A DNA stretch of 64,000 nt from Muribaculaceae bacterium (lineage in GTDB: Bacteria > Bacteroidota > Bacteroidia > Bacteroidales > Muribaculaceae): contig JAFZHD010000028.1 of NCBI GenBank assembly GCA_017555085.1, positions 1-64,000 of the forward strand. Reading direction: 5' to 3'. The position numbers were made by a program, and so were the translations under genes. Shown piece by piece: positions 10,704-37,748 of this stretch (the first letter of the stretch is position 1; the number at the start of each line of letters is the position of its first letter). The notes beneath the pieces were generated by a model, which saw only the letters and a list, made by a program, of their open reading frames with translations, was not told the DNA's origin and ran no database searches.

Positions 10704-10746
10704 AATGTCAAGTATGATATTGAAAATTTGATTTAGTGATTATATC

Positions 10747-10777
10747 TTGCAAAGATAACTCAATTTTATTAACTTTG
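10747..10777 (+). promoter_or_regulatory. Promoter reading toward the CRISPR array
   Basis: TTG (10747-10749), 20 bases, TAACTTTG (10770-10777): a Bacteroidetes-type promoter on the plus strand, about 155 bases before the first CRISPR repeat. It is the mirror image of the amylase promoter and overlaps it completely; the outer sequences TTGCAAAG and CTTTGCAA are inverted copies. Confidence 0.65.
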
Positions 10778-10780
10778 CAA
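10750..10780 (-). promoter_or_regulatory. Promoter of the alpha-amylase gene
   Basis: On the minus strand, TTG (complement of 10778-10780), then 20 bases, then TATCTTTG (complement of 10750-10757). This matches the Bacteroidetes -33/-7 consensus and lies 47 bases upstream of the start codon. Confidence 0.7.
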
Positions 10781-10932
10781 AGAAGAGTGTTATTCGCCGA
10801 AAAAGGGTTGAAAACATAACGATTAGGATTGAAAAAATGACCTAAAATGACTCGCTATGACACGAAAAAGCTCAGTTTTTTTGAAGTCAAATCTCTCAAA
10901 ACTGCGATTGGAAGCGGGTTTTCAGAAAGTCT

Positions 10933-11164
10933 GTTGTCAAAGCTCCTATTTTGAGGAGTAGTAACAACGATTGACCCGCAAGGGCGCATTGTGGCAAAGT
11001 TGTCAAAGCTCCTATTTTGAGGAGTAGTAACAACTATAAGCTTTGTAGTATAAGGCTTTATGTTGTTGTTGAAACCTCTGTTTTGAGAGGTAATTACAAC
11101 TACCCATAAACTGGCGGTCTTCATAACCGTTGTGGAAGGTTTCGTTTTGGAAACTATTGACAAC
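10933..11164 (+). CRISPR. Orphan CRISPR array with type VI-B-like repeats
   Basis: Four 36-bp repeats at 10933-10968, 10999-11034, 11065-11100 and 11129-11164. The three spacers are 30, 30 and 28 bp. Every repeat starts GTTGT and ends ACAAC, with a TTTTG loop at positions 17-21. Repeats 1 and 2 are identical; repeat 3 matches them at 25 of 36 positions and repeat 4 at 23 of 36. The changes in the stem (11-15 with 22-26) are compensatory, so all four fold alike. From memory, these end and loop features and 30-bp spacers mark type VI-B (Cas13b) arrays, and the first 12 bases of repeat 4 equal those of the Prevotella sp. P5-125 Cas13b repeat. No cas13b, csx27, csx28, cas1 or cas2 is in the window. 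Spacer 1 (10969-10998) is identical to 26289-26318. The T-rich loop, the upstream promoter and the T-run downstream all suggest rightward transcription. A very weak extra repeat-like stretch may start at 10861. Confidence 0.85.
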
Positions 11165-11176
11165 TGCTTTTTTTTT
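11129..11176 (+). terminator. Probable array terminator: last repeat plus T-run
   Basis: The last repeat contains the hairpin GTTTC-GTTTTG-GAAAC and paired GTTG/CAAC ends, and three bases later comes a run of nine T (11168-11176). This looks like intrinsic termination of a rightward array transcript. Confidence 0.5.
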
Positions 11177-11180
11177 GAAT

Positions 11181-11244
11181 TAACCCCCTCCGGCGCAAAA
11201 GCGCCTCGTCCCCCTATTTTGCAAGCAAAACAAGGGGACACTTA
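11181..11244. repeat. GC-rich nested hairpin element
   Basis: Downstream of the array lie GGCGC-AAAA-GCGCC and then a longer stem, GTCCCC...GGGGAC, enclosing TTTTGC-AA-GCAAAA. The block is much more GC-rich than its surroundings and could be one copy of a dispersed intergenic repeat or a transcription barrier in front of glnN. No second copy is in this window. Confidence 0.4.
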
Positions 11245-11316
11245 AATTAGTCAAGTAGGCTTTGGCGATTAGACGCGAAGATACTTTTGCTCGCTGTGAA
11301 AAATAATCAAGTAAAC

Positions 11317-14234: not shown

Positions 14235-16910
14235 TTATCGACCACTGTTGGCGATTTTGTTGCGCAACAATGTGTTGTACTCGTCGCTTGCCATGAGTTG
14301 TTCCATTGTCAAGTGCATGCGATAACGCCAATAGTGGCGCGGGTTGGCAGGCACATTGATTTGCTCTTCAAGCGGATTTTCGCGGCGAATGTTGCCGTCA
14401 ATTGAGAGGAAATCTTGCAAAGGAATGATTGCCAACATTGCAGGAGAGTTGAGGTGCAATGTGATAATCTTGTCACATATCCAAGGTTCGGCATAGAATG
14501 GTGCTTCGCCGCCTTCGTGAAGCATGTTGTTGAAGAAGTGTTGAGTCTTTTCGCGGTCTTCTTCCCACCATTGGCGAATGCCGCCCATATCGTGGGTTGA
14601 TGTAGTACATACCGAGAGATAGGGGTAGGTGTATGTGTTGCCAAATTCGGCTTTGGGATCTTTGGGCATGCGCTGAATTTCGAGCGAACTGATTTGGAGT
14701 GCGCTCATAACGGCAGGTACGCAATCGGGAATCATACCCAAATCTTCGGCACAAACGAGCATGTCGGTCGCTTCGATGAGAGGGGGAAGTTTCCACATGG
14801 CTTTGCCATACCAGAAGTCGTTGTGGCGGTGGTAGAAGAAGTCGTTGTAGAGACGGTCGTAGCACCAACGCTCATACTCGTTGAGCGAACGGTAGATGTA
14901 GGTGAATTGAGCCGAGATGCGGGGATGGTATTTGCCTTTTTCGATGGGGTCTTCAACAAACAATACATCGTCGATGAGGCCGAGCAATCCGTCGCAAATG
15001 CGTTGGTTCTTTTCGCTCTTTTCAAGGGTTGCGAAATAGTCAACAACTTTGCGTTGAGTGTCAAACTCGGGTTTGAGTTTGTAGCGGCCATAACTTACGC
15101 TGTAAAGGAATGTGTTGCGCACTTCTTCGGTGTATTCGCCAAAGAAATCCATCAAGAAATAGTCCATGATGTAGGGAGTTGTCTGCAAATCGACATCAAT
15201 CCAGAAATCATAGTTGTAACGGAGTTCGTCGGGGGTGTAGGGGAGTGCGGGGTTGAATAAGCCCAAGAGGCCGTGAACGGCGTCCATGGGGATTTGCCAA
15301 ATGCGGAAGAAACCGAGCACATGGTCGATGCGATATGCGTCGAAATATTCCGACATTTTGCGGAAACGGGCTTTCCACCATGCAAAGCCGTCTTTGTTCA
15401 TCTCTTCCCAGTTATATGTGGGGAAGCCCCAGTTTTGGCCGAGGACAGAGAAGTCATCGGGTGGCGCACCGGCTTGGCAATCCATGTTGAACAAGCGGGG
15501 TGAAATCCATGCATCAACGCTTGTGCGTGAAATACCGATGGGAATATCGCCTTTGATTGCTACGCCCTTGCTGTGAGCATAATCGCGCACATGGCGCATT
15601 TGCTTGTCGAGGTGATATTGAATGTAGTAAACATAGTTGATGTCGTCTTGGTTGTCGGCAACAAATTTGTCCACTTTGGCTTTGTCATATACTGCATATT
15701 CGCCCCATTTATCAAATTCGGGTGTATTGTTGCGGTCGCGCAACACGCAGAAAGCTGCGTAGGGAGTGAGCCACTCGGCGTTTGCAGCTACGAAATCAAC
15801 AAACTCTTGTGATGCTACTGTCTCAGCACCGTCTTGTGCAAAAAGTTCGCGTGTGAACTGAATTTTGCCTTGGTTGACGCGTTCGTAGTCGATTTCTTTG
15901 AGAGTGTTGAGCTCTTTGCCCAAATTGTTATAGTATTCTTGGCGTTCGGCATCTTTGAGTGTACCCATTGCCGACAAACGCAAGTACATGGGGTGAAGTG
16001 CGAATGTAGAGTTGGCGTTGTAGGGATAAGAGTCGGTCCAAGTGTGAGTCATTGTTGTGTCGTTGATGGGCAGTATTTGCAAGAATTTCTGACCTGTCAT
16101 TTCGGCCCAATCAATCATGAGTTTGAGGTCCATGAAGTCACCAACACCAAAGTCTTCTTCGGTGCGAACCGAGAATACGGGTATTGCAACACCGGCACCG
16201 CGCCAAGGCGACATGGGATTGTTGAAACGGAGACCTGAAATGGTCATAACCTCGTTGCGTTGTGCAGGGCTGTAATTGTAGAAACGGTTGTTGCCGCCTT
16301 CCCATGCCACTAATTCGAGAGTGTCTTTTTTGAGAATCAAGAATTTGTATTCAAAAGGAGTAGTCATGCCTTTCATTTCAAGGAATGCGCTCCATTCGGG
16401 GAAATTGGCATCGTTCATTACCACTGCTTTTGAAATGTCCCATTTACCGAGGGGTTCGCAACCGCCGCAGATAGCAAGCACTTCGTCGGTTTGCACGGTG
16501 GGAGCCATTACGCGGATGCTGATGCCGTTTTTGATGGTGAGGGCAGCATCTTTGTTTTCGCGGTGGCAGATACAGTCGGTGAATGCCGATGAGTAATATG
16601 GGCGGTCCATGGGTTGGTCTTGCCAGCAGTCAAAGAATTCGTAGTTCTTTGCACTGCGGCCACGACGGAACAGGTGTCCGTTGCCCCATTCACGTCTTTC
16701 GCCGCCGTTTTCGTGGCGAATGATATAGCGATAGTTAAAGTCGGAAGTAGAATCCTCAACTTCGACAGTCAAATGCCAATGTTCAGCACCATCAAGGTCG
16801 AGACGAACGGCTTCTGCTTCATTGCCGTTGCCAAGTTGGGGGATGTTTCCACAAATGTAAACCGATTCGCCCCAATTACAACGATAATTGATATTGAAGA
16901 TAATTTTCAT
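14235..16910 (-). CDS. malQ: 4-alpha-glucanotransferase with two starch-binding domains
   Basis: Amylomaltase (GH77), which moves alpha-1,4-glucan segments between chains and releases glucose, in cytoplasmic maltodextrin or glycogen metabolism. It is 891 aa, longer than E. coli MalQ (694), because the first 270 residues hold two CBM20-like starch-binding modules (motifs CNWGESVYICGNIPQLG and VLAICGGCEPLGKWD). The GH77 core carries YRIDHVLGFFRIW (nucleophile Asp), CAEDLGMIPDCV (acid/base Glu) and TTSTHDMGGIRQWW. This two-CBM20 form is common in Bacteroidetes and resembles plant DPE2. No signal peptide. It pairs functionally with the lipoprotein amylase at 9276-10703, though they are not in one operon. 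Confidence 0.94.
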   Translation of the reverse strand: MKIIFNINYRCNWGESVYICGNIPQLGNGNEAEAVRLDLDGAEHWHLTVEVEDSTSDFNYRYIIRHENGGERREWGNGHLFRRGRSAKNYEFFDCWQDQPMDRPYYSSAFTDCICHRENKDAALTIKNGISIRVMAPTVQTDEVLAICGGCEPLGKWDISKAVVMNDANFPEWSAFLEMKGMTTPFEYKFLILKKDTLELVAWEGGNNRFYNYSPAQRNEVMTISGLRFNNPMSPWRGAGVAIPVFSVRTEEDFGVGDFMDLKLMIDWAEMTGQKFLQILPINDTTMTHTWTDSYPYNANSTFALHPMYLRLSAMGTLKDAERQEYYNNLGKELNTLKEIDYERVNQGKIQFTRELFAQDGAETVASQEFVDFVAANAEWLTPYAAFCVLRDRNNTPEFDKWGEYAVYDKAKVDKFVADNQDDINYVYYIQYHLDKQMRHVRDYAHSKGVAIKGDIPIGISRTSVDAWISPRLFNMDCQAGAPPDDFSVLGQNWGFPTYNWEEMNKDGFAWWKARFRKMSEYFDAYRIDHVLGFFRIWQIPMDAVHGLLGLFNPALPYTPDELRYNYDFWIDVDLQTTPYIMDYFLMDFFGEYTEEVRNTFLYSVSYGRYKLKPEFDTQRKVVDYFATLEKSEKNQRICDGLLGLIDDVLFVEDPIEKGKYHPRISAQFTYIYRSLNEYERWCYDRLYNDFFYHRHNDFWYGKAMWKLPPLIEATDMLVCAEDLGMIPDCVPAVMSALQISSLEIQRMPKDPKAEFGNTYTYPYLSVCTTSTHDMGGIRQWWEEDREKTQHFFNNMLHEGGEAPFYAEPWICDKIITLHLNSPAMLAIIPLQDFLSIDGNIRRENPLEEQINVPANPRHYWRYRMHLTMEQLMASDEYNTLLRNKIANSGR

Positions 16911-24660: not shown

Positions 24661-25647
24661 ATGAAGAAAAAAGTTTTTGGATTTAGCGTAATGATGTCGC
24701 TCGTTTTTGCGGTGGCGTTTTTGTCTTGTGGCGATAAAAGTTGTGGCAAGATGCCGATTGCGCGTCTTGACAAGGTGGTATGTGGCTATGTCGATGCTGA
24801 GACTGTCGAGCGAGAAAATATAAAAGCGGAATATGGCGATGCGATTGATGTATGGTGTCGTTTGATGGGTTATGAGTCAGCCGATGACTCGGTGTTGATG
24901 CAGATGTCGCAGTCACGGGCAATGGAGGTTTTTGCGCCTGATGTGCGTGAGCGGTTCACTGCTATTGATTCGATTTCGGAGGTTCTATTTTCGCTTGAAG
25001 AAAATGTTGGCAAAATTTTGAAAGATAGTGTTGAACGAAAATACTATTCCGTAATATCGCCATACACTCAGTCGGTGTATTTGGCCGATTTGATGGTGTT
25101 TGTTGCATTGAACCATTATCTTGGTAGTGACTATAAAGGTTATGGCTATTTTGAGCAATATCAGCGAGTGACAAAGACACCGCAACACTTGCCCTATGAT
25201 GTTGCCGAGGCGATTATATCAACCCGATTTCCGTTTGAGGCGAGTGAGTCAAGCACAGTGCTGAATGCTTTGCTTTATAATGGTGCTGTGCTTGCTACTA
25301 TTGAAGCAATTGTGCCTGATGCCCATATCGCAGAGGCTATGGGTTATAGTGCCGAGCAAATGGAGTGGCTTGACCAAAACGAGCCTATGGCATGGGATGC
25401 AATTATAACCAAGCGATTGCTTTATTCAAGTTCGTTGGGTGATGTCGACCGCTTGACACGGCCTGCTCCGTCAACGACTATTGTGCATCAGCAGTCGCCC
25501 GGTAGATTGGGCCGATATATCGGTTATAAGATAGTGAAGAGTTTTATAAAAAATAACGGTGAGTGTGACTATGTGAAGCTGCTGCAACCATCGTTTTATA
25601 ATGATAATCAATCGCTCATTTTATCGGGGTATAATGGCGGAAAATAG
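24661..25647 (+). CDS. GldB-like lipoprotein
   Basis: A 328-aa lipoprotein whose central segments (LNHYLGSDYKGYGYFEQYQ, then AIISTRFPFE and ALLYNGAVLATIEAIVPD) match the GldB family as I know it. GldB was found as a gliding-motility lipoprotein in Flavobacterium, but non-gliding Bacteroidales keep homologues of unclear role. The signal peptide ends FAVAFLSC, with Cys as the lipidation site. I chose the ATG at 24661 because an upstream in-frame start at 24646 would add residues before a well-formed signal. It is followed after 219 bases by the thioredoxin-fold gene. No gldC or other gld genes nearby. Confidence 0.75.
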   Translation: MKKKVFGFSVMMSLVFAVAFLSCGDKSCGKMPIARLDKVVCGYVDAETVERENIKAEYGDAIDVWCRLMGYESADDSVLMQMSQSRAMEVFAPDVRERFTAIDSISEVLFSLEENVGKILKDSVERKYYSVISPYTQSVYLADLMVFVALNHYLGSDYKGYGYFEQYQRVTKTPQHLPYDVAEAIISTRFPFEASESSTVLNALLYNGAVLATIEAIVPDAHIAEAMGYSAEQMEWLDQNEPMAWDAIITKRLLYSSSLGDVDRLTRPAPSTTIVHQQSPGRLGRYIGYKIVKSFIKNNGECDYVKLLQPSFYNDNQSLILSGYNGGK

Positions 25648-25866
25648 TCGGGAAAACGTCTAAAATGTGTTGTAAAACATATTCTTTGCAATTTTTAACA
25701 AATATCCTTAAGTCCGCATTATAAGGGCGTTTAGGAGGGGTGTGAATGTCTAAAATGGTGACTGTGAGCGCTGTTGATTTTGACACATGGGAAAATATGC
25801 GTAACTTTGCAGCGATATTTAAGACCGACCACCATATCGGTCGTAGTATTAACCAAACATCACAGA

Positions 25867-26358
25867 ATGAAGAAAACAATGACAATCATTGCCATCTTCG
25901 CTGTTTTCTTGGTTTCGGTAGCGGCCTATACTGATAAGGCAGTTGATGCATCACAAGGCTATACCGCGCCGATTTTCTCGATTGGTCAAGGCGAAAATAA
26001 AATGTCGCTCGACCAGATGAAAGGCAAATATGTGTTGCTCACTTTTTGGGCATCAAGCGATGCAAAATCGCGCATAGCATGTCAGCAGTATTCATCATTT
26101 ACTCGCGAAAATCAACAGGAAAACGAGTTCTGTCACATTTCGGTCAATTTTGACCGTAGCGAAACACTCTTCAAAGAGATTGTTAGGCGCGACAAACTGC
26201 AAGCGGAGACGCAATATTTTGCGCAAGGCGATAAGGCAAGCCGATTGAAGGCTGATTATCAACTTGAAAACGGATTCAACACTTACTTGATTGACCCGCA
26301 AGGGCGCATTGTGGCAAAGAATCCATCAACACAGCACTTGAACGAGATTTTTAAGTAA
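25867..26358 (+). CDS. Thioredoxin-fold protein without CxxC; contains the sequence of CRISPR spacer 1
   Basis: A 163-aa exported protein with an AhpC/TSA-thioredoxin-like fold. The start at 25867 gives a signal or anchor segment (MKKTMTIIAIFAVFLVSVAA). YVLLTFWASSDAKSR corresponds to the strand and active-site loop where redox-active members have WCxxC; here the Cys pair is replaced by SSDAK, leaving only a later Cys. GFNTYLIDPQGRIVAKNP is the conserved cis-Pro-side segment found in TlpA-like proteins. It should therefore be a non-redox binding or chaperone-like member. Bases 26289-26318, encoding part of IDPQGRIVAK, are identical to CRISPR spacer 1 at 10969-10998. It is convergent with priA. 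Confidence 0.8.
   Translation: MKKTMTIIAIFAVFLVSVAAYTDKAVDASQGYTAPIFSIGQGENKMSLDQMKGKYVLLTFWASSDAKSRIACQQYSSFTRENQQENEFCHISVNFDRSETLFKEIVRRDKLQAETQYFAQGDKASRLKADYQLENGFNTYLIDPQGRIVAKNPSTQHLNEIFK
26289..26318 (+). other. Exact protospacer of CRISPR spacer 1
   Basis: All 30 bases of spacer 1 occur here in the same orientation as the host gene. The identity extends to base 26319 if the first G of the following repeat is counted. The flanks are ACTTACTT on the left and GAATCCATC on the right. Confidence 0.97.
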
Positions 26359-26368
26359 CTGATTTTAT

Positions 26369-26400
26369 GACCTTCCCCATTTTGGGCGAAGGTCTTTTTT
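26369..26400 (+). terminator. Terminator between the thioredoxin-fold gene and priA
   Basis: Stem GACCTTC / GAAGGTC with an inner CCCA/TGGG pairing and one bulged C, then a run of six T. It serves the rightward gene ending at 26358. On the opposite strand it lacks a strong T-run, so priA transcripts may read through. Confidence 0.8.
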
Positions 26401-26437
26401 GTTTGTAAAGTAGGTGTGGAATTAAGCGAACCGGCTG

Positions 26438-28906
26438 TTACATCGGGTCGACATCATAATATATCATCATGCCTTTCATGCGCGGGTCTTGGTGCATTTG
26501 CTCATAGGTGGCACGCAAAATTTCTTTGACCTTTTTCATTGATGCGTTAGTCTCGACTTTGAGCATGATTTTGCGAATAAATAGAGACTGAATGCGAGAA
26601 ATATATGGCTCTTCGGGCCCGAAAACACGATTGCCAAACAGTTCGCGCAAGCGATTGCTGTATATCACCGAGATTTCCGATAATATCGCGCTGTCGCGGT
26701 GTTTCAGATAGATGTCGATGATGCGAGTAAAAGGCGGGTAGTGATATTGTTGTCGCTCCTGTATCTCCATATTGTAATGGCTCATATAGTCGTGGTTGAC
26801 CAGGTGGGTGATTACGGGGTGCTGCGGTTGAGTCGTTTGCACGGCCACAGTACCTTGTGTATTGCGGCGTCCTGCGCGTCCTGCCACTTGTTCAAGCATA
26901 TTGAAAGCGCGCTCGGTTGCTCTGAAATCGGGGAAGTTGATGATTGAGTCGGCGTTGACGATGCCTACAAGACTCACGCCGTCAAAGTCAAGACCTTTTG
27001 TTACCATTTGTGTGCCGACAAGTATCTGTGACTTTCGTTTTGAAAAATCATCGATGATATTGGCATATCCGTCTTTATTGCGAGTGGTGTCAAGGTCCAT
27101 TCGCGCGATTTTATAGTCGGGGAACATTGTTTCCACTTCATCTTCAACGCGTTCGGTGCCATAGCCGAGGGTGTCAACTCCAGGCTCTTTACAGGCAGGG
27201 CAGATGGTGGGTTGTGGATAGGTTGAGCCGCAATAGTGGCAAACGAGTTGGTTCCAACGACGGTGGTAGGTGAGTGATACATCGCAGTGCTCACATTTAG
27301 GCACCCAACCGCATTGCTTGCATCGTGCCATTGGGGCATATCCTCGACGATTGAGGAAGAAAATAACCTGCTCGCCACGGTTGAGTGCTTCGTGGGCGAG
27401 TGTTGTGGTAGTTGAGTCAAATGTGCCTATGGCTGTTTTCTTGCGGCGCGAGAGGGCCATGTCAATTACTTTGATTTCGGGTAATTGCACTCCTTCATAT
27501 CGTTCGCTAAGTGTAACAAGCCCATATTTGCCAGAGGTGGCCTTGTAATATGTTTCGATTGATGGTGTTGCGCTGCCGAGCAATGTTTTGGCTCCGTGCA
27601 TTGAAGCGAGGACGATGGCAAGGTCGCGGCCGTTGTAACGAGGTGCGGGGTCTTGCTGCTTGTAACTCGACTCATGCTCTTCGTCAACAATGACAAGCGA
27701 GAGATTGCTGAATGGCAAAAATAGCGATGAGCGCGCGCCTATAACCACACAAGGCTCATTGTTTTCTAGCAATTTTTTCCATATATCAACACGCTCGTTG
27801 TCTGAGAATTTTGAGTGGTAGATTATGACCTTGTCGCCAAACACGCGTTGCAATCGTCGTGTGAGTTGGGTTGTAAGTGCGATTTCCGGCACAAGATATA
27901 GCGCTTGGCCTTTGCGACGCATTATAAAATCGATGAGATGGATATATATCTCGGTTTTGCCGCTTGAAGTTACGCCATGAAGTAATGTCACACTTTTGTC
28001 GTTAAAGCACTCGTGAATTTGGTTGAGTGCAACCGTTTGAGCTGGGCTGAGCGAGGGAACGCTGCCGGCAACCGCTCCCGAGTATTTGAAACGGTTGATT
28101 TCTTTGCGGTATATTTCTACAATACCTTTGTCGGCCATGGCTTTGATGATGGAGTTGGTTACGCCTGAGCGTTGTGTTACCTCATCGCGCGTAACCTCTT
28201 TGATAGGCTCGCTGTGGCGGGCAAAAGCGCTTAACTCAATCAATGCCAATAGGGCGGTTTCTTGTTTCTTTGCCCCTTTGACAGCGGTAAACAGTTTCTC
28301 AATCTCGATGCTGTTGTTGCGGTCGGCAAGAATCTTTACATAAGTTTCCTTGCGAGATGTATATCGTTCAACAAGTTTTTCCGAGATTATGATAGCCTCT
28401 TTTTCAAGCAGTCGGTTGGCAAGCGCAACAATGTTTTTGAATCCCGTTTTCTTTTCGATTTCGGTGGGTGTCATGCGTCCGGAGTGGTCGAGCAGTTGGC
28501 ACACCATTGTTTCGCGTTCGTTTAATCTGTTTTCGGGGTCTTCTTCAAAGTCGCGGTTTAATTCGAGGAATGTCTCGCTCTCCACTTTAAGACTGGCTGG
28601 CAGAGCTGCTTTGAATACATCGCCCATTGTGCATAGATAATACTCGGCCGCCCATTCCCATAGTTTTAGTTGCGGGTGCTTGATGATAGGGTGGTTGTCA
28701 AGTATTTTTGCAATGTCTTTAACCTCATAACCTGTGGGGGCAATGGGAGTTAATGCCGCTACGATGCCGGTGTAAAATTTCTTATTGCCAAATGGTACGA
28801 TTACGCGATAGCCCACATTGACCAATCCTATCATATCCTCCGGGATATGGTAGGTGAATGTGCCATAAAGCGGCAAGGGGAGTATTATTTCGGCATATTG
28901 CTGCAT
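26438..28906 (-). CDS. priA: Primosomal replication restart helicase PriA
   Basis: 3'-to-5' DNA helicase that reloads the replisome at stalled forks. 822 aa, a little longer than E. coli PriA (732). Features in order: N-terminal 3'-DNA-binding domain (residues 1-110), Walker A LHGVTSSGKTEIY near 312, DEEH box VIVDEEHESSYKQ near 408, the zinc-binding cluster CKQCGWVPKCEHC...CHYCG...CPACK at about 530-580, and helicase motifs VGTQMVTKGLDFDGVSLVG and EQVAGRAGR. The gene is followed upstream, 11 bases away on the same strand, by a small membrane-protein gene with which it may be transcribed. Confidence 0.96.
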   Translation of the reverse strand: MQQYAEIILPLPLYGTFTYHIPEDMIGLVNVGYRVIVPFGNKKFYTGIVAALTPIAPTGYEVKDIAKILDNHPIIKHPQLKLWEWAAEYYLCTMGDVFKAALPASLKVESETFLELNRDFEEDPENRLNERETMVCQLLDHSGRMTPTEIEKKTGFKNIVALANRLLEKEAIIISEKLVERYTSRKETYVKILADRNNSIEIEKLFTAVKGAKKQETALLALIELSAFARHSEPIKEVTRDEVTQRSGVTNSIIKAMADKGIVEIYRKEINRFKYSGAVAGSVPSLSPAQTVALNQIHECFNDKSVTLLHGVTSSGKTEIYIHLIDFIMRRKGQALYLVPEIALTTQLTRRLQRVFGDKVIIYHSKFSDNERVDIWKKLLENNEPCVVIGARSSLFLPFSNLSLVIVDEEHESSYKQQDPAPRYNGRDLAIVLASMHGAKTLLGSATPSIETYYKATSGKYGLVTLSERYEGVQLPEIKVIDMALSRRKKTAIGTFDSTTTTLAHEALNRGEQVIFFLNRRGYAPMARCKQCGWVPKCEHCDVSLTYHRRWNQLVCHYCGSTYPQPTICPACKEPGVDTLGYGTERVEDEVETMFPDYKIARMDLDTTRNKDGYANIIDDFSKRKSQILVGTQMVTKGLDFDGVSLVGIVNADSIINFPDFRATERAFNMLEQVAGRAGRRNTQGTVAVQTTQPQHPVITHLVNHDYMSHYNMEIQERQQYHYPPFTRIIDIYLKHRDSAILSEISVIYSNRLRELFGNRVFGPEEPYISRIQSLFIRKIMLKVETNASMKKVKEILRATYEQMHQDPRMKGMMIYYDVDPM

Positions 28907-32012: not shown

Positions 32013-35000
32013 CTATGACAGTTTGTGGCGTTCTCCGTCAAGTTTAATCAAATTGATGGAAAGAGCAAGGTCAATGCCTCGTTTCATTGAGGCGTGAACA
32101 TTGTCTCTCACGCACGCGTAGCCAAATAGTCGGGCCGTTTCGCTGATTAGTCCGTCTTCGTCTATGGCAAATTGCTCTTTGATCACTTGCAAAACTGCTT
32201 GTGTTACCTCTTCAGGAGCAATATCCAAGGCCTCTCTTCCCGAAGCCATGCGGTATTCCGAGTAGTTATCACGCTGTTCCTGACTCTTCCAAAAGAAGAT
32301 ATCGTCGGTTCCGCTTGTAACCAAATTCATGTCTTTGAAAACTTCTGTGAGGTACGCATTGATGCGAACGCCGTTGCGACTAATGTCATAACTGTTCAAT
32401 AGTCGTTTTATTAGGAAACGGCGACTGATAGGAGCCTCTGCTTCAATAATGGTCTGAATGTCATTCACAACCGAGTCGGTGTAGTAGCCTTGTGAGAACA
32501 TGGCCGAATCGGCATGACGAACAGATAATTCGGCCGGAGTGTATTCGGTTGCGATAACTGCCGCCTCTTCAATAGTCGTGTTGTTTATCGGAGCCGGCTC
32601 TTCAACGATAGTTTCTTCATTGTTTTCATCATCAGTTGAATTTATACGCTCGATTTCACGGATAATGCCATTGAGTACATGTTCGGGAGTGTCCCACCAT
32701 TCCAACGACCAAATATTGTATGTCCTCCAACCGAGCAAAGACAGAACGGAAGGAGTAGTCACATCACGGTCGTGAGCGGTGTTTGATGCAACATAGTTGT
32801 ATCCGTCACATAGTAAGCCCAATAGGTAGCGGTCGGGATTGGTCGGGTCAACGATGCCGATGTCAACGCGATATTCCGATGTGCCGATATTGGTGTTTAC
32901 TGTGTGTCCTTTTGCTTTGAGAGCAGTGGCAACCGATTCGATAAATGCATCTTTTGTCTTTCGTTTGGTCCCGTATTCCATGTGCATCAATGCAATGTTG
33001 CCTCGTTCGGCATAATCAAGGAATGATTTGAGACACTTCACGCCCTTGGCATTGGTGCGATAGAGGTCAATGTCATCGGCTTTAAGTGATGAGAACACTT
33101 TCATTTCATATCTTGCACGCGAAACAGCAACATTTAGTCGTCGTTCGCCACCATCACGGTTGAGCGGACCGAAGTTCATGGCTACTTTGCCAAATTGGTC
33201 GCGACCATACCCAATCGAGAATAGGATTACATCACGCTCGTCGCCTTGCACATTTTCCAAGTTTTTGATGAAGATTGGCTCATGCATTTTTGCAGCAACG
33301 GCTTCCAAATCAGAATTTTTACGCAACATATCGTTGAGCATATCTTCGATAAGTGTTTGCTGATTAACATTAAATGTTACAACGCCAATGCTTTGTGATG
33401 CAGTTTGCGGGTCTGATAGTCGATTTTGTATCTCTTTCACAACTGATTTTGCTTCCTCTTTGTTGTTGCGGCCTGTGCCACGATTGTATGTGCCTTTTAC
33501 ATACTCAAACGACACCTTTGTCGCCATATCGTCGTTAGATGGGAAAGTCATCAGCGAGTTTTTGTAAAAGATACGGTTGCTGAATGTTATAAGGCTTTCA
33601 TGCTTGCTGCGGTAGTGCCACAATAGGTGTTTCTGTGACATGGAAAGAGCCAAGCAATCTTCAAGAATGCTCTCCAAATCTTCGCTTTCGGAGTGTTGTT
33701 CGCAGAAATTGTCAGCCATGAAGAAGTTGGTGGGCGGAAGTTGGTGCTCGTCGCCAACTATGATGGCGCTTTTACCGCGAGATATAGCGGCAATAGCCTC
33801 GCAAGTAGGCATTTGCGAAGCCTCGTCAAAGACGATGAGGTCAAATTGCGGCCAATTAGCCCCAAGGTATTGCGAAACTGAAAGCGGACTCATGAGCATA
33901 GTCGGACACATTCTCGAAATAAGGTCGGGGATAGACTCAAATAGTTTGCGGATTGATACCCCTCGACAACCATTGCGAATGCACTTTTGTAAGTATCCCA
34001 CATCAGAACTTTGTGATGCTTCTTTGCGGAGTGCCGGTAGCATTTCGGTCATTCTCATTACGAGCTCTCGGTGGGTTATATTTTCAAACTCCTTGCACAG
34101 TTTGCGGAATCGTTTAATCTTATCCTCAAATAGTATTGATTGGAAGTATCCTAGCTCGTTGTTTTGTTCAATGTGATGGTTTGCACAATGTTTATATACG
34201 CTCTTCAAGTATGCTTTTGCAATATCGCATGGCTTTGCATCGCCACTCTCAAACCATTCGACAATTATATTTATATTATTGTCGCTCATCTGTTTGCGTA
34301 TGACATTATATCCTACTTTGCTGCGCAAGTTTATTATGTTGCTTTGCCAGCGTGTAAGAGCGTTTGAAAGCCATGCAAGCCAGTCGATGCCAGTTTGCGA
34401 TAGTGTAGCCACCGCCATTTGTTCCAATGCCGAAACTTTTTCCAAGAGGTTGTTGTAGGTGCTGTTATAGTCTTTAAGCACCTTGTCGTTGATGCTTATG
34501 TCATTGGTGAGGGCAAGCACTATTTGAGGCCATATATCAGCGAGCAGAGATGCTGCCGATTTGAGTATGCTCAATCGGTTGTGATAAAAATGAATTTGTT
34601 GAGCATCGGCATTTTTCAATTCGCGCTTGATGTTATATGATTTGTCAATGTATTCAATCAACTCGTCACACTCTTTTTGCAAACGATGTACGGTGTCAAG
34701 TTTTGTCAGTATGTCGGGCACTGTGGCGACATCAATGCGCTTACCGTTATGTGTGTGTGATGAGATAGTGTTAACTATGCTCCTTCGGTCAAGATATTTT
34801 GCAAGAAACCACTTGTGCTCGGCAGCCATCCAACGCTGACGCAATGCTCTGTAATCAACATTGAGGAAATATTCATTAAAGCGGGTTAGTAGTTGGTGTT
34901 TTTCGTTGTCAAGTTGTTTCTTAAATTCAGTAAGTTCATGCAATGCTTTAAGCAAATCTTCTTTGATGTTTGCGATAAGATTGCTAGGGATTTCTTGGCC

Positions 35001-37748
35001 GTCAAGCAAAATTTCAGTGATAGTATTTAGTGCCGCATATTGCTCTCTTGAAAGGTTGTCAATAGAGGTTCCCAAAACAGTAGATAATTCGCCTCTCAGA
35101 TTTATGAGAATCTTGATTTCAGATAAAATTGCCTCAATCTGATTTTGAATTGTCTCTCTCGTTTTGGGTGAGTATTCCATTAGATTGACTTCTCGCAGAG
35201 CGTTGTTATACTCAGCGACAGATCTTGCGGCCGACTCATAATTTTCGACAAGTTCGGTGTGTTCACGAAGGCGTTCTGCACTTAAATTTTCAATATAATC
35301 GTCTGAGAATATAATCGTGGGTGCATCGTGAATGTCTATTTCGGAGTAGCGGACAAAGCAATCATATATAGACAGGCCGCAACCATGCACTTTGTGCAAT
35401 CCATCGACATGGGCATTCAATTCGCGTTTCAACTCGTCAATGTGCGCAGCCTCTTTTGCAAAAGAATCATCGTTCATTTGCTGAATGACCTCTGTGGTTT
35501 TGCGTAGTTGGTCCATCACAAGGCTTTTCTTGGTCTTATTTGAGTGCAATTCCAAGCAGAATGGGTCGAGACCAATAGCGGCAAGGCGTTTTTGCACAAC
35601 CTCCAATGCTGCCATTTTCTCGGCTACAAACAAAACTCGTTTGCCTTGAAATAGCGCATTTGAGATTATGTTGGTAATAGTCTGCGATTTACCTGTCCCC
35701 GGAGGACCGTGCAAAACAAAACTTTTGCCTGATGCAGCCTCGCAAATAGCCGCCAACTGTGATGAGTCGGCGCTAATTGGCAATGCGATGTCAGTTGAGG
35801 CAACCTCATTGACGGCCACTGCATTATCATCATACACCATATCTTCATGTAGTTGTCCATTAATAAGGCTTTGAATGAGAGGATGCTTTGACATAGCTTC
35901 TCGGTTGGTGCGCAAATCGTTCCAAATAACAAAGCGGTTGAAATCAAATATGCTAATTATTGATTCCTCAATAACGTCCCATTTGTCTTGCACCATAATG
36001 GCCTTGCGAACAGCCGCAAGTATGTACTTAATATCAAGGCCATTCTCATTTTGAATGGCTTCTGTGACATCGGGTATGTCTATGTCGTAATTTTGCTTTA
36101 AGAGTTCAAATAGTGTTTCGTTGAGAATAGGGTCTTCGCCGCGGCTAACCATATAGTAGCCTTTGTTGGCCGATTTGCGTTCCAATTTAATGGGAAAAAG
36201 AACGATAGGGGCGAAGTGAGGAAACGCTTTGCCCGGTTCATACCATTTCAAAAAGCCGAATGTAATGAAGAGCGTGTTGGCTCCACTTTCTTCGATTGAA
36301 AGACGAGCCGAACGGTATAGGCTTGTCAGATTCTTTGTGAGTGTAGATGAGTCTTGATATGACCTTAATGTGTTTTTGTCTAACTCTTTACGCAATAGTT
36401 CTCTGATCGAGTCTTTGAGGTTGATGCGTTCGCCCAAATCTTTGCATTTGGCATCGGTGTCCCAATCATCAGGTCGCTCTACGATATATGTTTCCTTATT
36501 CTTAGACAACATCTTAACCATGTCGTCAAGCGATGGGACCATAATGCGGAGCATGTTATTGGACAAATGTATATTTAGAAGGTTGTTTCGTGTGCTCAAA
36601 TCGAGCAATCGGCGTTCCCATAAGTCAAAACGGCTAAATTCGTTCTCGTCTTTTTTGAAAGTGAAAGTTTCACTAATTTTCTCGGGTGACGAATGATGCT
36701 GTTTGTCGGGCTCGGGATTAATAACCTCATATTCATTGCCATTATATATGCGCTGAGGTATCGGTTGCACACCCACTAATCGGGCACGAGCCACATCAAG
36801 AACAAACGAAAACTTTTCAAGGTCATTGATTTTGTCATTGGCTGCTGTTACTGCTTGGTTGAACGACATTTTGTTGCCCTCATTGGCACATGTTGTTTCA
36901 ACCAAAATAATTTCATTTATGCCCTCTGCAATGCGTTTGGTGATTACTGACGGGTCATCATTTACGCTGTCGACAAACATGTCGTTCACAAGCCAGCAAC
37001 CGGCAAAAGCATGGCTGTCTTGAACAATAAGCAACGGATTCATGCCAACGGCTTCAAGACAGGAGCACATTAGTAGCGCCATATCCAAACAACATCCTCG
37101 CTTGCCTCGCTCTTCGCTTAATAGTTCCTCACATGTGCGAATCTTTTGACCGTGTTGGGCGAGAGTTCTTGTTGAACAGCAATAGGTTATGTTTTGCTCT
37201 GCAATGGCCTCATAGATTGCACCGATAATCATTTTAGGTCGATTGGGCACATCATGTAAGTAGGCTGTAAGTGCGCTGTCTCCGGTCCACTTTGCAAGTA
37301 GATCTGATGCGCGCTTGATAATCGGGTCAAGGGCAATGTGGCGAGGTGTGACAAATGCTGCAAGATATTGTGACATTAAGGTGTTGCCCCAATACTGACA
37401 GTAATCTAAAACTTCTAATTCTTTTTTTGTTTCGGCCAAAACTTCATCATCTTTTGACAATACTTGAACTGTGGTTGTTGCCAAAGTTTTTTCGGTGAGG
37501 TTGCAAAGATAAGAGGTGTTTATCGATGGCTGAATATCTTGTTGCTGCCAACTTTCATTAGCCGGCAGATTGATAATGTGTTCTGCGACCGTGTTAGCAA
37601 ATTCGGGGTCAAAGGTTATTTTGACTTTCAGCTCTTCGTAACTCTCGGAAGAGTCGTTGCAAACGGTGATGCTGCGAATAATCGCAACATTATTTACTGC
37701 CATGGCATAACTTGTCATGGGGATTTGTTCGATATTGACGGTTAGCAT
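32013..37748 (-). CDS. Giant helicase-nuclease (DUF4011 / SF1 helicase / Vsr-like), defence candidate
   Basis: A 1911-aa multidomain protein. In order: an N-terminal beta-rich region; a transglutaminase-like fold with RGCCLDMALL near residue 214 and DSHAFAGCW near 245; a DUF4011 segment (FDLWERRLLDLSTRNNLLNI, about 372); an SF1 helicase with Walker A GPPGTGKSQ near 681, Walker B LIVFDEASQMP near 1311, VGDEHQLPPTNFF, and NVAVSRARYEMKVF as motif VI. A restriction-like Vsr/MTES_1575 nuclease fold (EYRVDIGIVDP...LGLLCDGYNY) spans about 1610-1700, and a DUF3320-type segment about 1780-1840. Between Walker A and B lies about 600 residues of helical insertion. From memory, the DUF4011-helicase-Vsr order is that of single-gene anti-phage proteins named Hhe. 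The surrounding IS remnant supports an accessory island. Target and trigger are unknown. Confidence 0.85.
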   Translation of the reverse strand: MLTVNIEQIPMTSYAMAVNNVAIIRSITVCNDSSESYEELKVKITFDPEFANTVAEHIINLPANESWQQQDIQPSINTSYLCNLTEKTLATTTVQVLSKDDEVLAETKKELEVLDYCQYWGNTLMSQYLAAFVTPRHIALDPIIKRASDLLAKWTGDSALTAYLHDVPNRPKMIIGAIYEAIAEQNITYCCSTRTLAQHGQKIRTCEELLSEERGKRGCCLDMALLMCSCLEAVGMNPLLIVQDSHAFAGCWLVNDMFVDSVNDDPSVITKRIAEGINEIILVETTCANEGNKMSFNQAVTAANDKINDLEKFSFVLDVARARLVGVQPIPQRIYNGNEYEVINPEPDKQHHSSPEKISETFTFKKDENEFSRFDLWERRLLDLSTRNNLLNIHLSNNMLRIMVPSLDDMVKMLSKNKETYIVERPDDWDTDAKCKDLGERINLKDSIRELLRKELDKNTLRSYQDSSTLTKNLTSLYRSARLSIEESGANTLFITFGFLKWYEPGKAFPHFAPIVLFPIKLERKSANKGYYMVSRGEDPILNETLFELLKQNYDIDIPDVTEAIQNENGLDIKYILAAVRKAIMVQDKWDVIEESIISIFDFNRFVIWNDLRTNREAMSKHPLIQSLINGQLHEDMVYDDNAVAVNEVASTDIALPISADSSQLAAICEAASGKSFVLHGPPGTGKSQTITNIISNALFQGKRVLFVAEKMAALEVVQKRLAAIGLDPFCLELHSNKTKKSLVMDQLRKTTEVIQQMNDDSFAKEAAHIDELKRELNAHVDGLHKVHGCGLSIYDCFVRYSEIDIHDAPTIIFSDDYIENLSAERLREHTELVENYESAARSVAEYNNALREVNLMEYSPKTRETIQNQIEAILSEIKILINLRGELSTVLGTSIDNLSREQYAALNTITEILLDGQEIPSNLIANIKEDLLKALHELTEFKKQLDNEKHQLLTRFNEYFLNVDYRALRQRWMAAEHKWFLAKYLDRRSIVNTISSHTHNGKRIDVATVPDILTKLDTVHRLQKECDELIEYIDKSYNIKRELKNADAQQIHFYHNRLSILKSAASLLADIWPQIVLALTNDISINDKVLKDYNSTYNNLLEKVSALEQMAVATLSQTGIDWLAWLSNALTRWQSNIINLRSKVGYNVIRKQMSDNNINIIVEWFESGDAKPCDIAKAYLKSVYKHCANHHIEQNNELGYFQSILFEDKIKRFRKLCKEFENITHRELVMRMTEMLPALRKEASQSSDVGYLQKCIRNGCRGVSIRKLFESIPDLISRMCPTMLMSPLSVSQYLGANWPQFDLIVFDEASQMPTCEAIAAISRGKSAIIVGDEHQLPPTNFFMADNFCEQHSESEDLESILEDCLALSMSQKHLLWHYRSKHESLITFSNRIFYKNSLMTFPSNDDMATKVSFEYVKGTYNRGTGRNNKEEAKSVVKEIQNRLSDPQTASQSIGVVTFNVNQQTLIEDMLNDMLRKNSDLEAVAAKMHEPIFIKNLENVQGDERDVILFSIGYGRDQFGKVAMNFGPLNRDGGERRLNVAVSRARYEMKVFSSLKADDIDLYRTNAKGVKCLKSFLDYAERGNIALMHMEYGTKRKTKDAFIESVATALKAKGHTVNTNIGTSEYRVDIGIVDPTNPDRYLLGLLCDGYNYVASNTAHDRDVTTPSVLSLLGWRTYNIWSLEWWDTPEHVLNGIIREIERINSTDDENNEETIVEEPAPINNTTIEEAAVIATEYTPAELSVRHADSAMFSQGYYTDSVVNDIQTIIEAEAPISRRFLIKRLLNSYDISRNGVRINAYLTEVFKDMNLVTSGTDDIFFWKSQEQRDNYSEYRMASGREALDIAPEEVTQAVLQVIKEQFAIDEDGLISETARLFGYACVRDNVHASMKRGIDLALSINLIKLDGERHKLS

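Follow-up and report, generated by a model that had tools for sequence, protein, structure and literature searches.

Why should a bacterium carry, in one of its CRISPR arrays, a spacer that matches one of its own genes base for base? The question is raised by a small array in the window (that is, the whole 64,000-nucleotide stretch of a Muribaculaceae genome analysed here), composed of four repeats and three spacers, the first of which, S1 (10969-10998), is identical at 30/30 bases to 26289-26318, both on the + strand, within the gene of a thioredoxin-like protein (Table 1). The match extends one base to the right, the first G of R2 corresponding to the G at 26319 (31 identical bases), and ends on the left, where S1 is preceded by C and the protospacer by T. 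With up to three mismatches, S1 is found at two places only in the window; none of 100 shuffles reached two, the largest count being 0. The exact 30-base self-match claimed in a sequence-only reading of this DNA is therefore borne out, with no third site in the window. In the whole genome (2,337,855 bases, or 2.34 Mb, in 53 contigs), the sole match of S1 outside the array at E≤0.001 is at C17:26289-26319 (E=5.9e-9), C17 being the contig of the window.

Table 1. Features of the window that bear on the self-matching spacer.
Feature	Positions	Strand	Remarks
Promoter-like motif (xTTG, 20 nt, TAnnTTTG)	10746..10777	+	Bacteroidota-type; found by regex; about 150 bases before R1, faces the array
Likely leader	10783..10932	+	A-rich and T-rich runs; ends ...AAAGTCT beside R1
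Repeat R1	10933..10968	+	VI-B type, 36 nt; 5-bp and 6-bp stems, z -3.5
Spacer S1	10969..10998	+	30 nt; equals 26289-26318
Repeat R2	10999..11034	+	identical to R1
Spacer S2	11035..11064	+	30 nt; 24-base core without IMG/VR match
Repeat R3	11065..11100	+	69% identity to R1; paired changes keep the stem
Spacer S3	11101..11128	+	28 nt; 24-base core without IMG/VR match
Repeat R4	11129..11164	+	most diverged, stem kept; limits set by eye
Thioredoxin-like protein gene (Pfam Thioredoxin_8)	25867..26358	+	163 aa
Protospacer	26289..26318	+	codons 141-151, LIDPQGRIVAK region, mRNA strand
priA	26438..28906	-	convergent with the thioredoxin-like gene

S1 stands apart from the other spacers of the genome. 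S2 and S3 have no match elsewhere in it at E≤0.001. At E≤1, no convincing match was found for the spacers of the main VI-B array (best, 30.1 bits) or for those of the type II-C array, whose best match (E 0.04) is located past the last repeat. A clear own-genome match is thus obtained for one complete spacer out of 10, namely three in the window array, five in the main VI-B array and two in the II-C array, the latter being broken at a contig end and so perhaps longer in spacers than seen here.

The repeats of the window array are of the VI-B kind. As in type VI-B CRISPR-Cas13b systems, they are 36 nt long, have GTTGT...ACAAC ends and contain an inner 6-bp stem, and the layout and hairpin of R1, R2 and R3 match those of arrays adjacent to Cas13b in G005, G007, G354, G205 and other genomes. 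The length, conserved sequence and hairpin of a VI-B repeat are all present; R4, which differs by 9 to 13 edits from each of 11 other repeats, is diverged but has the same fold. Indeed, R1, R3 and R4 share a 5-bp closing stem and a 6-bp inner stem (z -3.5, -3.7 and -4.7, respectively). In a set of 10 repeat sequences (R1, R3, R4 and seven from six relatives), 90% of the cells pair overall and 82% in the inner helix. Five of the six inner pairs are changed on both sides, a number reached by 12 of 500 shuffles. The covariation score of the 10 repeats was reached by 0/500 shuffles and, among the five measures, that of further pair types was not above the shuffles (449/500 reached it), all these values coming from a test that favours the stem, as the structure was derived from the same 10 sequences. 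A single four-repeat array (10933-11164) thus displays three different repeat stems, each maintained by paired changes. In the other VI-B arrays of the family, repeats of one array vary by a few bases as judged by eye, those of G376 and G205 varying more. An Rfam search returned nothing at the array. The array is followed immediately, at 11172-11243, by an intergenic element that measures about 40-70 bases, contains a CCCCTATTTTGC...GCAAAACAAGGGG hairpin and is dispersed in the genome, with 13 further places at E≤0.001.

Unlike in a complete VI-B locus, no cas13b gene, often found with csx27 or csx28, is adjacent to the window array, and none was found among the eight window proteins scanned with PADLOC. 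For this reason, the array is designated here as VI-B-like and detached. At E≤0.001, the genome nevertheless encodes one Cas13b (C17:74409-78221), on the contig of the window array and 63 kb away from it. The protein (1320 aa; profiles PDLC02153, 5.6e-157, and PDLC01468, 9.1e-139) has the two R-X4-H motifs of a VI-B effector, RNHHTH at 199 and RNAFSH at 1269, and, as in other VI-B systems, has no cas1 or cas2 beside it. The earlier proposal that an RNA-targeting system is involved agrees with the presence of these motifs and of VI-B-kind repeats on one contig. Few genomes of the family have a Cas13b (12 of the 397 drawn, at E≤1e-20).

Beside the resident Cas13b lies the main VI-B array, with six repeats, the first one degenerate, a 35-nt repeat and 34-36 nt spacers. 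By contrast with known VI-B arrays, the window repeats are not only detached but also differ from those of the resident array and are unusually unlike each other: R1, R3 and R4 are at 8, 11 and 13 edits, respectively, from the main repeat. R3 and R1 are nearer to two different repeats of G007 (3 and 6 edits). A Cas13b tree considered for assigning the window repeats to an effector lineage was left unused (three of its seven inner branches starred, several branches long).

Taken with the presence of four repeats only and the absence of the array from the same place in G004, the nearest relative, these distances are what would be seen if the array were a dead relic, processed by no Cas protein and carrying a self-spacer without effect on either strand. 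However, both stems are maintained in every repeat despite up to 13 edits. Moreover, the identity of R1 and R2, set against the divergence of R3 and R4, makes the left end the likely growing one and S1 likely the newest spacer. The R1-S1-R2 unit suggests that the array recently took up a spacer and hence that it is not dead for adaptation. On balance, a dead relic appears unlikely.

Whether S1 could harm its host depends on the strand that its guide would read. In a VI-B crRNA, the spacer is located 5' of the repeat. The orientation of the crRNA of Cas13b is opposite to that of Cas13a (PMC8209922), and VI-B arrays of Flavobacterium columnare are reported to be transcribed from the leader into the array (PMC8092290). 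We infer the orientation of the window repeats from their homology to Cas13b-linked arrays and from one phage-matching control. In this control, the first spacer of the VI-B array of G222 is identical at 30/30 bases to a phage contig (L095:4341-4370, IMGVR_UViG_2799112731_000002); its crRNA would be complementary to the phage ORF 4224-4547 (- strand), and the flanks, A and GAG, are as in the published rule. This was the one match obtained in IMG/VR from seven core patterns (S1, S2 and S3 of the window and one each from G376, G222, G354 and G005). As a side result, phage IMGVR_UViG_2799112731_000002 is thereby connected with a host in this family. When 50 other VI-B spacers were submitted to an open-frame test, neither strand was favored, the antisense being more open in 15 cases and the sense in 16, with 19 ties; the set came from eight arrays and left aside the initial spacer of the main array of this genome, some of those of G376 and G322 and all of those of G205.

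In the orientation assumed, the S1 crRNA has the same sense as the thioredoxin-like mRNA, hence cannot pair with it. S1-guided silencing of this gene is not expected, and in this orientation the strand speaks against a guide that would regulate the thioredoxin-like gene itself. With an RNA-targeting system, a guide of this sense would stay silent, which likely accounts for the tolerance of S1. Under DNA targeting, escape from a self-spacer requires mutations or inhibitors; here, on the contrary, the strand alone would silence the guide. The case shows why a self-spacer should be examined for its strand before a lethal or regulatory role is ascribed to it.

The gene itself likely starts at ATG 25867 rather than at TTG 25774. 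With seven of the eight relatives found, the alignment to the longer frame begins no earlier than residue 23-30, and with the eighth (G004) a stop is crossed if the alignment is made from residue 1. The protein has no CxxC at the place where this motif usually lies (FWASSDAKSRIAC), so that it may not be a redox enzyme.

An RNA able to pair with the S1 guide would have to be antisense to the gene. The stop codon of the convergent priA gene is 120 bases from the protospacer. A simple scan of 25600-26600 found no terminator-like site on either strand, and a T-run accompanies the hairpin between the two genes on its + side alone; antisense RNA could therefore come from priA. Transcription of priA that runs beyond the stop codon would be the one evident source of antisense RNA over the protospacer. 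This raises the possibility of a regulatory use, an idea put forward in general terms by the sequence-only reading. The guide would here act on antisense RNA that covers the 3' part of the thioredoxin-like gene and would tune priA or the gene. In its favor, in addition to the arrangement of priA, with no terminator-like site facing it in the simple scan, such a transcript would offer full complementarity to the crRNA, and survival of Cas13 self-targeting is described as possible if the target RNA is scarce (PMC6990116). It should, however, be noted that the flanks of the antisense target are C on the 5' side, a base complementary to the first G of the repeat, and AAG on the 3' side. The published rule asks for a 5' base other than C and for 3' NAN or NNA (PMC8209922; for BzCas13b, PMC7036953). 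BzCas13b is reported to reject a 5' C (PMC7036953), whereas PspCas13b is reported to be unrestricted by the flank, so that the C rule is not universal among Cas13b proteins (PMC8209922). In the assumed orientation, S1 thus lacks the combination of a complementary own RNA and permissive flanks that active self-targeting would take. In addition, an active self-spacer comes at a cost, as Cas13 also cleaves RNA collaterally (PMC6990116), and the spacer and the gene are not conserved together, the array being present in G000, the genome studied here, alone among the 41 genomes searched. Altogether, a regulatory use seems very improbable.

Comparison with relatives gives indications on the source and the age of S1. 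The array is located between an amylase gene and a glutamine synthetase gene, an adjacency common to relatives. In G004 (synthetase 98% identical at the protein level; assembly 72% complete), both flanks of the orthologous place align at 93%, and 10730-11265 is replaced by 166 unalignable bases, with no array. The thioredoxin-like gene is present in G004 (449/492 positions identical to G000); the covariation of spacer and gene among related strains proposed earlier as a check has so far not been seen, the closest relative having the gene and no array at the orthologous place. Among the 41 genomes, the own one included, S1 is matched by G000 and G004 alone, with the thioredoxin-like gene as the single site apart from the array; none but G000 matches the full array, G005 and G007 matching only repeats (R3) and G004 only the gene. 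S1 is identical to the G000 allele at 30/30 bases and to that of G004 at 28/30, which makes the own lineage its most likely source and points to a recent capture. This suggests that S1 was taken from the chromosome of its own lineage after the split from G004, or shortly before, a dating that rests on two differences in 30 bases whichever lineage changed. Self-matching spacers offer both the source and a rough date of an acquisition event, and in the present case they suggest a recent chromosomal uptake by a detached VI-B array.

The same searches bear on the idea that S1 came from a phage or another mobile element carrying the same 30 bases, the match to the host gene being secondary. A LIDPQGRIVAK-type motif is shared at the protein level by other thioredoxin-like genes, and it is this stretch of the fold that S1 encodes. 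On the other hand, the 26-base core of S1 has no match in IMG/VR, the array region has none among 50,697 phage records, and the restriction of S1 matches to two genomes and to a single gene argues in the same direction. A mobile element with these 30 bases, which the sequence-only reading had designated as a finding that would overturn its claim, was therefore not encountered in these collections, and we hold such an origin to be extremely improbable. As the genome is metagenome-assembled and in 53 contigs, an assembly artefact was also considered. Against it, the match has exactly the length of one spacer and is bounded exactly by repeats, G004 can be aligned to the sequence on either side of the array, and the spacer is inside an 80 kb contig; the probability of an artefact appears very low.

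How, then, could a fragment of the chromosome have entered an array of this kind? The closest precedent is F. columnare, where new VI-B spacers derive about evenly from phage and self (Hoikkala et al., 2021, PMC8092290), where VI-B acquisition requires the II-C cas1, and where self spacers directed against mRNA are rarer than chance (0.359, P<10^-9; PMC8092290). The likeness is close in several respects. In both cases, a VI-B array without its own cas1 and cas2 is found in a genome with a II-C Cas9-Cas1-Cas2 system, self spacers are 30 bases long and mostly not mRNA-directed, and transcription proceeds from the leader into the array, which was shown there and is assumed here. In the present genome, one Cas1 is found at E≤0.001, beside Cas2 and Cas9 in a type II-C cas9-cas1-cas2 locus, and the VI-B locus has no Cas1-Cas2, as acquisition in trans presupposes. 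Cas1 is present in the assemblies of five of the 12 family genomes with Cas13b, the majority of these assemblies showing none.

Several differences should, however, be pointed out. The dependence on Cas1 was shown by deletion in F. columnare, whereas the evidence is comparative here; the array is 63 kb from cas13b here; and both repeat kinds are 36 nt long there, whereas the II-C repeats of the present genome, whose array ends at a contig end, have 47 nt for 36 nt in the VI-B repeats. According to Hoikkala et al., this kind of cooperation may be absent where the II-C repeats are longer, and VI-B acquisition in such species was left open (PMC8092290); the pair of repeats found here is of the kind for which cooperation was doubted (PMC8092290). 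Finally, a TTTA-N5 acquisition motif precedes about 50% of the VI-B protospacers in F. columnare (PMC8092290) and is absent upstream of the protospacer of the window (CACTTACTT). A Cas1-Cas2 other than that of F. columnare may, however, use another motif.

From these comparisons, it can be proposed that a piece of the own chromosome was caught by accident, likely by the II-C Cas1-Cas2 acting in trans, and inserted as the first, and likely newest, spacer of the small VI-B-like array. S1 would then have been kept because its guide is silent, having the sense of the mRNA and no pairing with it; the only RNA able to pair would be antisense, such as priA read-through, with the 5' C that BzCas13b is reported to reject. 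We consider this account, accidental self-capture in trans followed by tolerance of a same-sense guide, to be probable. It resembles what is described for self-targeting spacers in general, in which identity with the host chromosome is most likely the result of an acquisition accident (PMC6990116). As regards the sequence-only reading, the self-match, the RNA targeting and the accidental capture, which fits well, can be retained, whereas regulatory use is not expected of a crRNA predicted to have the sense of the mRNA; that reading did not mention the strand relation, the resident Cas13b with its other array, the Cas1-Cas2 of type II-C or the compensation in the stems of the repeats.

The leader gives a lead on how the array could have been recognized. 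The type II adaptation machinery is described as locating its site by a leader-anchoring sequence (PMC8616872). The last five bases of the leader, AGTCT, are common to the window array, the own II-C array and the II-C array of G002, but occur neither at the II-C array of G006 nor at the main array of the resident Cas13b; in G005, G007 and G205, the leaders of the VI-B and II-C arrays differ in their last five bases. By eye, the window leader is unlike those of the VI-B arrays of G005 and G007. The sharing of AGTCT, a single post-hoc match, is no more than a lead. That the II-C Cas1-Cas2, with its 47-nt repeats, writes into the detached 36-nt VI-B array by recognizing this shared leader end, S1 being the visible trace of it, is thus a tentative idea, possible but doubtful. 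Upstream of the leader, the promoter-like motif corresponds to the Bacteroidota consensus, a match that by itself does not prove activity; the motif has 24 matches in the window, both strands included, for a mean of 3.55 in 20 mononucleotide shuffles.

Most likely, the new element brought by this locus is a natural case of such a capture in a genome with 47-nt II-C repeats, where cross-talk was doubted. The window locus would in this respect be a natural candidate for the question that Hoikkala et al. left open. If the II-C Cas1-Cas2 does write into the VI-B array by way of the shared leader end, cross-talk between the memories of DNA- and RNA-targeting systems would be a general trait of Bacteroidota and not a peculiarity of F. 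columnare.

A few other observations were made around the Cas loci. The gene just upstream of cas13b in G000 and G007 (L018:10871-12292 and L019:4117-5502, respectively; in G205, L093:9065-10336) encodes a protein of about 460-470 aa, the C-terminal part of which is weakly matched as CorA-like by PADLOC. Relatives of this protein lie beside three of the 12 Cas13b genes, some of which have short flanks only. Pfam gave no CorA match on it, and in the sections of the 2025 classification considered here CorA is mentioned only with type III; the protein is possibly a new VI-B accessory. Between cas13b and its array, past the window on the same contig (L018:16262-16700), are broken fragments that resemble a reverse transcriptase and include a YADD motif. 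In G007, the Cas13b locus and array are located between radC and priA (L019:5453-11919, 16269-16763), about 7 kb away from the gene orthologous to that matched by S1, and the Cas13b locus of G000 likewise adjoins radC. Lastly, in the window itself, 32013-37748 encodes a 1911-aa protein matched by PADLOC to the candidate defence family PDC-S37 (E reported as 0, 1185.7 bits) and to Hhe (2.6e-146).
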